From Streptomyces sp. NBC_00569 (lineage in GTDB: Bacteria > Actinomycetota > Actinomycetes > Streptomycetales > Streptomycetaceae): DNA of 64,000 nucleotides. A model generated the notes under the pieces. That model saw only the letters and a list, made by a program, of their open reading frames with translations. It had not been told where the DNA came from and did no database searches. The DNA lies in contig NZ_CP107783.1 in NCBI RefSeq assembly GCF_036345255.1, positions 6,804,001 through 6,868,000 on the forward strand, given 5' to 3'. Of the stretch, positions 15,492-60,487 are shown one piece after another; position 1 is the stretch's first letter, and every line of letters starts with the position of its first letter. A program made the position numbers and the translations under genes.

Positions 15492-15506
15492 CTGACGGGG
15501 CGTCAG
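15492..15506. promoter_or_regulatory. CTGAC-N5-GTCAG palindrome before the P450 gene
   Basis: CTGACGGGGCGTCAG, preceded by T, ends 20 bp from the P450 start codon. It is one of five exact copies of this palindrome in the window, all before acyl-CoA or sterol catabolism genes. The binding protein is not identified. Confidence 0.65.
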
Positions 15507-15520
15507 CTTGTCGGCACCGT

Positions 15521-15534
15521 AGTAACGGGTTCTA
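15521..15534. promoter_or_regulatory. Weak KstR-like half-site
   Basis: AGTAACGGGTTCTA keeps one perfect KstR half (GTTCTA) and AAC of the other; 9 of 12 defined positions match TAGAACnnGTTCTA. It lies in the P450/thiolase intergenic region. Confidence 0.35.
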
Positions 15535-15625
15535 CAAGTGGCAAGACCCGTGGTGCGCCCGATTGCGCGCGTGGTACGTGCACGACCCTTGCGTACCGGG
15601 AGTAGCACCGTCGAGACTGCACGGA

Positions 15626-15647
15626 GAACTGGTACGCGTTCTAGTTC
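15626..15647. promoter_or_regulatory. KstR-like operator before the FadA5-like thiolase
   Basis: The 22-bp imperfect palindrome has outer GAACT/AGTTC arms and an ACGCGT centre. Its core at 15630-15643, TGGTACGCGTTCTA, matches 10 of the 12 defined positions of the mycobacterial KstR consensus TAGAACnnGTTCTA. It ends 46 bp before the thiolase start codon, at a distance suited to promoter repression. Confidence 0.6.
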
Positions 15648-15693
15648 TTACGTCTTCTGGTTCGGTCCGGGAATGTGTGGAGAGGACGAGCTC

Positions 15694-57384: not shown

Positions 57385-58664
57385 CCCGCGCGTTCCGGCA
57401 CCGGCACCGCGTCCGGCTCCACTTCGCCCGGCAGGACCGGGAGTTCGGCCGTCACCGTGAAGCCGCGCGTGGCCGGCCCCGCCTCCAGGGAGCCGCCCGC
57501 CGCGCCGAGCCGCTCGGTCAGGCCCCGCAGGCCGGTACCGCCGACGCCCGGCTCGGGCGGCTCGGCCGCGGCGCCGCGCCCGTTGTCGTGGACCCTGAGC
57601 CGTACGCGCTCCGGGTTGCCGTCCACGGAGATCTCGCAGCGCGCCGCCCCGCTGTGGCGCACCGCGTTCGTGACGGCCTCCCGCACCACCCAGCCGAGCA
57701 GCGCCTCCGTCTGCGCGGCGAGCGGCGGGCCCGACTGGCGTACGACAGGCTCGATCCCGGCCGCCGTGAGCGCCGAGCGGGCGCGGTCGAGCTCGGTGGT
57801 GAGACTGCCCTCGCGGTATCCGGTGACCGCCTCGCGGATCTCGGTCAGCGCCTGCCGGCCGACGGACTCGATGTCCGACACCTGCGTGAGCGCCGCGTCG
57901 AGGTCGCGGCGGGCGAGCCGGCGGGCCGCCTCCGACTTCACCACGATCACGGACAGCGTGTGCCCGAGCAGGTCGTGCAGGTCGCGGGAGAACCGCAGCC
58001 GCTCCTGCTCCACCGCACGGTGCGCCAACTCCTCTCGCGCGGCGCGCAGTTCACGTACCGCCTCGGCCAGGGAGAGGATCGCGGCGGTCACCATCGTGGA
58101 CAGGAACGTGCCGTACGCGATGTTGAGCGCGTCCCAGCCCTCCTTGAGGCCGCCGATGGTCCCGGCGAGCGCGCTCAGGCCGAGGGCGACCTGGCCGAGG
58201 CGGCGGCCCCGCACGACCGCGCCCACCGCGAGGCCGAGCAGCGGGAAGAACATCAGCCAGCTGCCGCCGTAGGCGATGGCCAGCCCGCAGGTGAGCAGGC
58301 CCATCGCGATCAGCGCCAGGAGCGTGTAGCGGGCCTCGCGCCGCTTCTTGTCGAAGGCCTGGAACACGACCGAGATGTAGAGGCTGTTGAAGACGAACAG
58401 GCCGATGCCGCCGATCCAGGGGTTGGCCGTCTTGCCCTGGAGGAGGTTCGAGAAGGCGCCGAGCCCCATCAGGAGCCAGGGCAGCAGCGCGAATCCGTTC
58501 GGCGGCGGGCCCATGGGCCCGCCCTGGTCAGCCGCCCCGCTGTTCTTCGCGCCCTTGCCCCCGGCCCGCCACTCCGCCTTCCACACGTCCCGGTCCGCCT
58601 TCCACTCCTGGCGGGCGTCCCGCAGCTCCACGATCCGGCAGGTGACTCGGTGCTTCCAGGACAT
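57381..58664 (-). CDS. DesK-like sensor histidine kinase
   Basis: A 427-residue membrane kinase. A charged N-terminus and Gly/Pro linker precede about six helices (residues 55-190). The HisKA_3 dimerisation helix has the phospho-acceptor His in RDLHDLLGHTLSVI, and the HATPase domain has VVREAVTNAVRHSGA, VHDNGRG and GTGLRGLTERL. It likely senses membrane state or a membrane-active compound and phosphorylates the DesR-like protein. The ABC exporter genes upstream on the same strand form one unit with it. Confidence 0.9.
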   Translation of the reverse strand: MSWKHRVTCRIVELRDARQEWKADRDVWKAEWRAGGKGAKNSGAADQGGPMGPPPNGFALLPWLLMGLGAFSNLLQGKTANPWIGGIGLFVFNSLYISVVFQAFDKKRREARYTLLALIAMGLLTCGLAIAYGGSWLMFFPLLGLAVGAVVRGRRLGQVALGLSALAGTIGGLKEGWDALNIAYGTFLSTMVTAAILSLAEAVRELRAAREELAHRAVEQERLRFSRDLHDLLGHTLSVIVVKSEAARRLARRDLDAALTQVSDIESVGRQALTEIREAVTGYREGSLTTELDRARSALTAAGIEPVVRQSGPPLAAQTEALLGWVVREAVTNAVRHSGAARCEISVDGNPERVRLRVHDNGRGAAAEPPEPGVGGTGLRGLTERLGAAGGSLEAGPATRGFTVTAELPVLPGEVEPDAVPVPERAG

Positions 58665-58682
58665 GGCTCCCCAGCTCCCCGT

Positions 58683-59399
58683 TCAGATGGTCCGCGCGGC
58701 CCTGCGGTACGACACCACAGCGTACGAACCGAAGGCCAGCAGCCAGGCGGCGAGCACCGTGACCGCGGCGGCCGACGGCGCGTGCCCGTCGGCCACGGCC
58801 GTACCGAGCTGCGCGAACCGGTTCGTCGGTGTGTACGACGACACGGACTGCAGCCACCCGGGGAAGAGCGCGATCGGGAACCACAGGCCGCCGAGGACGG
58901 AGAGCCCCAGGTTGCACACCATGTTCGCGACCCCCGTGGTCTGCGCGGTCAGCCGGTAGCCGTTGCCGAGACCGAGCAGGGTGAAGGGGATCGAGCCGAG
59001 CCACAGCAGCAGCGCGACGGCGGCCCACTGCCATACGTCCAGCCGCACCCCGTTGACCAGGCCGCCCGCGACGAGCACCGCCGCGATCGACGGAAGTACC
59101 GTCACGGATCCCGTCAGGGCCCGGCCCGCCACCACCTGGCGCGGCGTCATCGGGGTGACCCGCAGCTGCCGCAGCCACCCGATCGTCTTGTCCTCGGCGA
59201 CCCCGCCGCCGGTGCTGAGGGCCGAGCCCACCGCGCCGTACGCGGCCATGCCGACCATGGAGATCGTCTTCCACTCGGGGTCGTTCTCGCCGAGGTTGGT
59301 GAACAGCACGTACATCATCACCGGCATCCCGACACCGAAGATCACGAACATGGTGTCGCGCAGGGTCCTGCGCACTTCGAGCCTCAGGTAGTCGATCAT
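58683..59399 (-). CDS. ABC-2 type transporter permease
   Basis: A 238-residue membrane protein with six hydrophobic segments of the ABC-2 type (TMFVIFGVGMPVMMYVLFT, VLPSIAAVLVAGGLVNG, ALLLWLGSIPFTLLGLGNGYRL, SVLGGLWFPIALFPGWLQSVS). It pairs with the ATPase, which overlaps it by 4 nt. The set resembles drug or antimicrobial-peptide exporters linked to DesKR-like systems. It ends 18 bp before the kinase start. Confidence 0.88.
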   Translation of the reverse strand: MIDYLRLEVRRTLRDTMFVIFGVGMPVMMYVLFTNLGENDPEWKTISMVGMAAYGAVGSALSTGGGVAEDKTIGWLRQLRVTPMTPRQVVAGRALTGSVTVLPSIAAVLVAGGLVNGVRLDVWQWAAVALLLWLGSIPFTLLGLGNGYRLTAQTTGVANMVCNLGLSVLGGLWFPIALFPGWLQSVSSYTPTNRFAQLGTAVADGHAPSAAAVTVLAAWLLAFGSYAVVSYRRAARTI

Positions 59400-60367
59400 C
59401 GAACCGTCTCCAGATCCGTGTCGGAACCGCTGCCGGTGCGGTCGTCGGAGCCGCTGCCGGGACGGCCGTCCGAACCGCTGGTCAGCGCCATGAACGCGTC
59501 GTCGAGCGAGGCCGGCGCGACCTCGAGGCCCCGGATCGCGTCCAGTGCGGCCAGCGCGATCACCGTCGCGTCCGAGTCGTCCGTACGCAGCCTGGCCCGG
59601 TCTCCCCGGACCTCCACGGCCGTCACGCCGGGCAGCAGCAACAGGCCCTCCGTGCCGCGCCCGGCCAGGTCGAACGAGACGAGGCTGCCGCCCGCGGCCC
59701 GCTTCAGCTCCTCGCCGGAGCCCACCGCGACGACCTTGCCGTGGTCGATGACGACGATCCGGTCGGCGTGGGCGTCGGCCTCCTCCAGGTAGTGCGTGGA
59801 GAAGAGCACCGTGTGGCCGCGCCGCGCGTAGGCCCGCATCGACGTCCAGAAGGCGTGCCGTGCCTCCACGTCGAGGGCGGCCGTCGGCTCGTCGAGCACG
59901 AGCAGGGCCGGGTTCCCGGCCAGGGCCACGGCGAACCGGACCCGCTGGGTCTGGCCGCCGGACAGCTTGTCGACGCGCCGCTGCGCGAGCTCCTCGATGC
60001 CGGCCAGCGCGAGCGCGTCGGCGACGGGCATCGGCGCCGGATAGCGGCCCGCCACGAAGGAGACCAGCTCACGGACCGTGACCCGGGGGACCGCTCGGCC
60101 CTCCTGGAGCATCGCGCCGACCTGACCGGCGCGCACCGCCTGCTCCGGCGTGCCTCCGAAGAGGGAGACCGTCCCCTCGTCCGGGGTGTCCAGGCCGAGC
60201 AGGAGGGCGATCGTGGAGGACTTGCCCGCGCCGTTGCGGCCGAGCAGGGCGACGGTCTCGCCGCGCCGTATCTCCAGATCGACCCCGTCGACGGCGCGCA
60301 CCGCGCCGAATGTCTTGACCGCCCCCGTGAAGGACACGGCCACCGGTGTCCCGTCTGTCTTCGTCAT
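59396..60367 (-). CDS. ABC transporter ATPase (DrrA-like)
   Basis: A 323-residue ATPase: Walker A LLGRNGAGKSST, signature KLSGGQTQRVRFA, Walker B LLVLDEPTAALD, H-loop STHYLEEAD. The C-terminal extension with GSDGRPGSGSDDRTGSGSD is a low-complexity repeat. First gene of the ABC-ATPase/permease/kinase/regulator operon. ATG 60367 was chosen; its RBS is weak. The frame open to 60499 is not needed for the conserved domain. Confidence 0.9.
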   Translation of the reverse strand: MTKTDGTPVAVSFTGAVKTFGAVRAVDGVDLEIRRGETVALLGRNGAGKSSTIALLLGLDTPDEGTVSLFGGTPEQAVRAGQVGAMLQEGRAVPRVTVRELVSFVAGRYPAPMPVADALALAGIEELAQRRVDKLSGGQTQRVRFAVALAGNPALLVLDEPTAALDVEARHAFWTSMRAYARRGHTVLFSTHYLEEADAHADRIVVIDHGKVVAVGSGEELKRAAGGSLVSFDLAGRGTEGLLLLPGVTAVEVRGDRARLRTDDSDATVIALAALDAIRGLEVAPASLDDAFMALTSGSDGRPGSGSDDRTGSGSDTDLETVR

Positions 60368-60472
60368 GACAGGGACGCTACGGGCCGGGAGTCCGGCACG
60401 GCAGATGCCGGTTGTACGGAGCCGGGCAGTACAAATGTCACGGCCGCCCGCCCGGCCGCACGCACCCCGGAT

Positions 60473-60487
60473 CTGACATAGCGTCAG
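60473..60487. promoter_or_regulatory. CTGAC-N5-GTCAG palindrome before the MaoC operon
   Basis: CTGACATAGCGTCAG, preceded by T, lies 175 bp before the MaoC start and 48 bp before a KstR-like site. It is the fifth exact copy of the palindrome. Confidence 0.65.

Follow-up and report, generated by a model that had tools for sequence, protein, structure and literature searches.

A TetR_C_38-type regulator as the probable owner of a palindromic promoter element at acyl-CoA and sterol side-chain-type genes of Streptomyces sp. NBC_00569

The stretch of Streptomyces sp. NBC_00569 DNA considered here, in the following termed the window, comprises 64,000 nt (C1:6804001-6868000 of the 10.3-Mb chromosome) and carries a gapped palindrome, CTGAC-N5-GTCAG, before catabolic genes, which raises the question of which protein recognizes it. 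A preliminary description of the window had regarded the motif as ownerless and as implying a second regulator of the pathway besides KstR; the second regulator is supported by our analysis, and the motif now has a likely owner, a TetR-family protein encoded 1.1 Mb from the window. We propose, with a probability of roughly 0.78, that the refined site aTCTGACGnnnCGTCAGAt is the predicted operator of this regulator, which is composed of a TetR_N and a TetR_C_38 domain and would repress a second catabolic cluster, scattered operons, and the window genes, where its control would be layered over that of KstR. The motif, its clustering, promoter position and conservation, its co-occurrence with the TetR gene, and its presence at the TetR start in most loci of the class were computed.

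All five exact copies listed in the preliminary description were located in the window (15492, 34686, 44964, 53939, and 60473); 0.09 are expected from dinucleotide shuffles, close to the previous estimate of about 0.06. With at most one mismatch, seven matches stand against 3.1 expected, and because 7 of 100 shuffles also give seven, significance by count is limited to the exact copies. Among the 1217 arm/spacer combinations seen (5-nt arms, spacers of 0-12), 42 reach five window copies once coding DNA is included and CTGAC-N5 is the sole one with at least five intergenic copies; the signal is therefore intergenic. Each exact copy lies 14 to 105 bp from the nearer gene start. The one-mismatch copy at 26528 is real and looks genuine, the site being kept in 6/7 relatives; another at 6304-6318 sits within a gene and is judged a chance match. 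A preceding T and a pyrimidine (Y) as last spacer base, both noticed before, are present in all six window copies (the five exact ones and 26528); genome-wide, Y is merely preferred, because second-cluster sites such as GGATA break the rule. The refined site was obtained from a position weight matrix (PWM) built on 15 cluster sites. Conservation was followed in ten same-genus genomes around kstR and counted where the orthologue was found in the stretch. The window sites, for which no strand is assigned, are as follows:

15490..15508: exact site between the cytochrome P450 gene (start 20 bp away) and the presumably FadA5-like thiolase gene; PWM 21.6; kept in 7/7 relatives (shared region)
26526..26544: site before the aldehyde dehydrogenase gene; one mismatch, CTGAT; PWM 22.0; kept in 6/7 relatives, three of these six sharing the CTGAT variant
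34684..34702: site before the gene of the F420-type luciferase-like monooxygenase (LLM) class oxidoreductase; PWM 25.2; kept in 7/7 relatives; no KstR box nearby
44962..44980: site before the fused acyl-CoA dehydrogenase gene, beside a KstR box; PWM 23.0; kept in 2/3 relatives, the third (L254) having it if the predicted start is used
53937..53955: site before the SCPx-type thiolase gene; PWM 30.1; none in 3/3 relatives
60471..60489: site between an ATP-binding cassette (ABC) transporter gene and the MaoC hydratase operon; PWM 25.4; kept in 3/6 relatives

The site is thus retained by some Streptomyces relatives at five of the six window promoters. The window copies are not all equally good, the SCPx copy being absent from the relatives compared and the MaoC copy kept in half of them.

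A similar density in coding DNA or before unrelated genes, which the preliminary description had named as speaking against its claim, is not seen genome-wide. CTGAC-N5-GTCAG occurs at 45 sites, compared with 4 for a reversed control, and TCTGACGNNNCGTCAGA, when two mismatches at most are allowed, is matched 79 times, compared with 12 in the control. Fifteen of the 45 sites lie in two catabolic clusters, five in the window and ten at C1:5686987-5752776 (binomial p 4e-16, 170 kb taken), so that the two clusters hold 8.8 sites per 100 kb and the rest of the genome 0.30; 14/15 cluster sites and 17/30 of the others are intergenic. The 45 sites are not all independent, because two exact palindromes are duplicated at both chromosome ends (C1:9230, 87422, 10237053, and 10315246), as in terminal inverted repeats. 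In the second cluster (C1:5.69-5.75 Mb), sites precede genes for an AMP-binding ligase, an amidohydrolase, a short-chain dehydrogenase/reductase, a flavin reductase, an ATP-grasp coenzyme A (CoA) ligase, an enzyme resembling flavin-containing monooxygenases, and an operon with a ChsH2-type protein of the oligonucleotide/oligosaccharide-binding (OB) fold, thiolases, and acyl-CoA dehydrogenases; the weight matrix adds further sites there, e.g., 5687063, 5692676, and 5710808. Gene roles were assigned by Pfam scans of ten proteins per cluster, the remaining genes being judged by eye. Elsewhere, the site at 8045623 precedes a ChsH2-like OB protein gene (by eye) together with a thiolase-like gene. 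C1:8873633 and 8886168 form a third small group of sites, at a monooxygenase-like gene with a ligase and at an enoyl-CoA hydratase-like gene with thiolases (by eye). The good site (24.7) at C1:4029976, 52 bp upstream of an ABC-transporter ATPase-like operon (by eye), suggests a target that was not expected. A strong KshA_C match (PF19298, 300.8 bits) at C1:7217384-7218013 lies outside both clusters, and the 8 kb read there contain no site exceeding 14 bits.

The candidate owner is a TetR-family gene (PF00440 and PF19352) located within the second cluster at C1:5712728-5713375 on the minus strand. The TetR length of 215 aa is found in all 120 homologues among the matches listed. A same-genus orthologue (L061), about 91% identical to the NBC_00569 protein, belongs to both domain families (TetR_C_38, PF19352, 242.9 bits, cutoff 23.9; TetR_N, PF00440, 26.8 bits, cutoff 24); an NCBIfam scan of the TetR protein gave no match above cutoff. 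The segment TSxATFYQYF of the helix-turn-helix (HTH) is invariant across 15 aligned orthologues, which are 41-90% identical to the first.

The distribution of the motif follows that of the TetR gene. Orthologues, defined by E<=1e-20, are present in 30 of 148 genomes of the class, and motifs were counted on both strands with the pattern TCTGACGNNNNGTCAG. The 118 genomes without TetR have on average 0.52 matches (maximum 3), and the 14 TetR-positive genomes outside the genus and outside family f15 have 9.9 (Mann-Whitney p 1.2e-8); the p-values are nominal, because the genomes are related. The f15 genomes (G032, G073, G055, G089, and G105), with 55-234 matches each, were left out of this main statistic and are treated below. 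Among 181 genomes from the phylum's other classes, where orthologues were sought with alignment A1, the eight with TetR carry 3, 20, 8, 4, 9, 5, 5, and 9 matches, and the 173 without it average 0.26. KstR served as control: it is present in 44/148 genomes, and the 21 with KstR but without TetR have a mean of 0.52 matches (maximum 2), so that KstR presence alone is no predictor of the motif.

The TetR gene itself is associated with the site. In Streptomyces, its ATG (215-aa start) falls within a degenerate copy of the palindrome (C1:5713367-5713385) that is nearly identical in 10/11 genus loci. With a rule requiring a site above 13 bits overlapping the aligned start or within 200 bp upstream of it, 24/43 TetR loci have an own-start site, i.e., 23/30 in the class and 1/13 in other classes; at this threshold, neither 99,889 shuffled bases nor the reversed loci gave any match. 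Three more loci of the class (L065, L070, and L071; family f20) have a site ahead of a predicted start that lengthens the N-terminus by about 70-90 residues, which raises the class count to 26/30, or 21/25 without the five f15 loci.

Several observations weigh against the proposed assignment. The copy at the TetR start is a degenerate one in Streptomyces (PWM 14.9-15.7) and is missing in one of the 11 genus loci, three of the f15 own-start sites are barely over threshold (13.7), and in the other classes only one of 13 loci has such a site. Fewer than five matches are present in 9/30 TetR-positive genomes of the class, G109, G153, G042, G051, and G152 having at most one, and G316, the outlier among the 173 genomes of other classes without a close TetR orthologue, has seven matches with only weak TetR hits (best 3.6e-13). 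The genomes of f15 show a different site pattern, and the 40 loci used below for site positions were picked for holding sites. In distant lineages, finally, the sites are not followed by a conserved first gene: in a comparison with the 144 genes of the two regions, the best match is a site-downstream gene for 10/65 first genes and for 34/221 other genes, i.e., there is no enrichment. Of 33 first genes with a homologue among the 144, 31 find it in the second-cluster region; what the lineages have in common is enzyme families and clusters.

As TetR, enzymes, and sites co-occur, a third partner could do so as well, and the site might belong to a different regulator, possibly an unlinked one, that is co-distributed with these catabolic genes, TetR being passenger and target. 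KstR is the single control regulator that was compared for co-occurrence, and one site lies 129 bp from the start of the gene for a 999-aa SARP-like protein (named by eye), the neighbour of the amidohydrolase gene. Direct repeats rather than palindromes are the known targets of SARP proteins, which counts against this protein as owner. Against any such regulator stands the own-start site in most TetR loci of the class, which is typical of TetR self-control, and in G051 the TetR gene and the single strict match (L279:13525-13543) are about 10 kb apart. We consider a different owner unlikely. The TetR orthologue of G051 contains one in-frame stop.

Site positions were determined in 40 loci of 15 genomes (592,878 bases) for sites above 18 bits. 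Of the 96 sites, 93 are upstream of a gene, one is within a gene, and two are elsewhere; the reversed control gave none. The median distance to the start codon is 36 bp, and 73/93 sites are centred 15-60 bp before it. The motif is a real, lineage-conserved promoter element, palindromic and operator-like and close to the target starts, as for a TetR-type pathway repressor. Binding, repression, and a ligand are what we infer for the TetR protein: a dimer probably binds the 19-bp palindrome at or just below the core promoter and blocks transcription, which for a dimer at 15-60 bp before the starts is the simplest reading. Besides its own gene, the protein would repress the second cluster and the scattered operons, and it would also act on the sterol side-chain-type genes of the window, with KstR control in addition at four of the six promoters. 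Its release is probably brought about by a CoA thioester formed in the pathway, most likely an acyl-CoA, because the targets make and consume CoA thioesters and because such compounds release KstR and KstR2, according to the available part of the source (PMC9782250). That TetR owns the site and acts as an activator or dual regulator would suit the 6/93 sites centred 120-300 bp upstream of the nearest start; an activator would rarely sit where most sites are centred, however, and the TetR proteins studied so far are mostly repressors, as far as the accessible text goes (PMC3511530), so that we regard activation as improbable.

The palindrome could also act as an RNA hairpin, a terminator, or an element like the repetitive extragenic palindromic (REP) sequences. 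Its arms can pair, and the 53939 copy lies inside a 39-nt inverted repeat (window 53927-53965) with 18-bp perfect arms, which folds into a hairpin of -33.1 kcal. This repeat extends into the ribosome-binding site of the SCPx thiolase gene. In f15, 13/28 checked sites lie at gene 3' ends. Outside f15, however, 3/96 sites lie at gene ends and 93/96 before gene starts, and flank complementarity drops to chance beyond two bases in the 96 sites, which argues that a fixed 19-bp sequence is kept and not a stem. A role as hairpin, terminator, or REP-like element is therefore very improbable and was rejected outside f15, with f15 and the 53939 copy as exceptions. The f15 genomes were also rejected as supporting evidence because of their sites at gene ends. 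In G032 and G073 (loci L185-L214, listed in full), the matches are spread along the genome, and the f15 TetR has diverged (about 38-50% identity to the Streptomyces protein, with a shorter C-terminus in most of the five). It is a rather doubtful idea that a local catabolic repressor has turned here into a chromosome-wide binding protein, e.g., for nucleoid organisation or occlusion, like SlmA of the same superfamily.

The genes at the window sites had been described as catabolic acyl-CoA and redox genes, and domain profiles bear this out for the P450, thiolase, aldehyde dehydrogenase, LLM, FadE, SCPx, and MaoC proteins:

14227..15471, minus strand: cytochrome P450 (PF00067, 82.4 bits), whose role would be CYP125-like, judging from the divergent FadA5-like thiolase
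15694..16863, plus strand: thiolase (PF00108/PF02803), which we take to be FadA5-like
26570..28051, plus strand: aldehyde dehydrogenase (PF00171, 513.7 bits)
33661..34671, minus strand: LLM class F420-dependent oxidoreductase, Rv3520c subfamily (TIGR03559, 440.4 bits, cutoff 335)
45006..47249, plus strand: fused double acyl-CoA dehydrogenase, 747 aa (PF00441 and PF02771, two stretches each)
53976..55169, plus strand: SCPx/lipid-transfer-type thiolase (NF006102, 630.2 bits, cutoff 436)
60663..61517, plus strand: MaoC/MFE-2-type enoyl-CoA hydratase (PF01575 and PF22622)

The window also contains a KstR-like regulator gene and KstR boxes, the latter without assigned strand:

28589..29209, minus strand: KstR-like TetR regulator (best NCBIfam match NF033703 KstR, 197.6 bits, under the cutoff of 280)
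15521..15534: KstR-type box, one mismatch
15630..15643: KstR-type box, one mismatch
26425..26438: KstR box, exact
26501..26514: KstR-type box, one mismatch
29378..29391: KstR box, exact, in the KstR promoter region; kept in 10/10 relatives
44981..44994: KstR box, exact, abutting the new site
60536..60549: KstR box, exact

An eighth KstR-type match at 21329 (one mismatch) was not tabulated because no site of the new motif is near. The boxes accompany four of the six window sites (15492, 26528, 44964, and 60473) and not 34686 and 53939; at the LLM promoter, 0/7 relatives have one. As stated before us, the motif is distinct from the KstR consensus: the published core operator TnnAACnnGTTnnA (PMC1995591, available part) differs from CTGAC-N5-GTCAG, and the KstR boxes are separate neighbours. 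In the second cluster, no intergenic KstR box with at most one mismatch was found, and for this reason that cluster, which holds the larger site set, looks like the new regulator's own domain, the window being shared with KstR; for the same reason, the regulon does not consist of sterol genes alone. That KstR or a KstR variant owns the motif, as boxes beside four of six window sites might suggest, is hardly credible in view of the unlike core, the at most two matches in the 21 KstR-positive, TetR-negative genomes, the kstR promoters of ten same-genus relatives (KstR box 10/10, motif 0/10), and the second cluster without such boxes, and KstR was ruled out as owner by the genome distribution and by its own promoter.

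Regulons consisting of a TetR protein and its operator are of a known kind; the overlap with KstR is the more unusual side. The operator of KstR2 is a CAAG/CTTG palindrome, from which the present motif differs by inspection of the consensus, and the target set differs as well. In the portions of the sources at hand, KstR2 is likewise a second TetR-type regulator of steroid degradation, acting on C/D-ring degradation and induced by a pathway CoA thioester (PMC9782250), and KstR (Rv3574) of mycobacteria is likewise a self-controlled TetR-family regulator of lipid and sterol breakdown with a palindromic operator (PMC1995591). The TetR protein proposed here differs from KstR in protein and operator, the distribution of KstR departs from that of the motif, and both regulators stand side by side in NBC_00569. 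The candidate is a member of the TetR_C_38 family (PF19352), in which no protein with a named operator or function was encountered; the 120 homologues listed bear generic names, one automatic entry reading SlmA. EthR and other TetR proteins of solved structure have a similar HTH domain (profile E about 2e-7); for EthR, the best matches extend over about positions 25-120 of the 215-position profile and fall mostly in the HTH domain, and ligand-domain matches are weak. No assignment of the motif or of the TetR protein was found in the literature, the coverage of which was partial and did not extend to motifs in figures, so that this is weak evidence of absence. Steroid pathways were reported to be lacking in 55/57 Streptomyces genomes, according to the accessible part of that study (PMC4810484), and assimilation of yeast sterols by Streptomyces with induction of cyp125A13 was recently suggested in the available text of another (PMC13170338).

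By the proposed assignment, an orphan motif becomes a regulator-operator pair with a defined gene and a predicted regulon of two clusters and scattered operons. It adds a second predicted repressor to the sterol side-chain-type genes in Streptomyces, and, the same TetR-motif pair being predicted for the phylum's other classes as well, it could serve to annotate many genomes.

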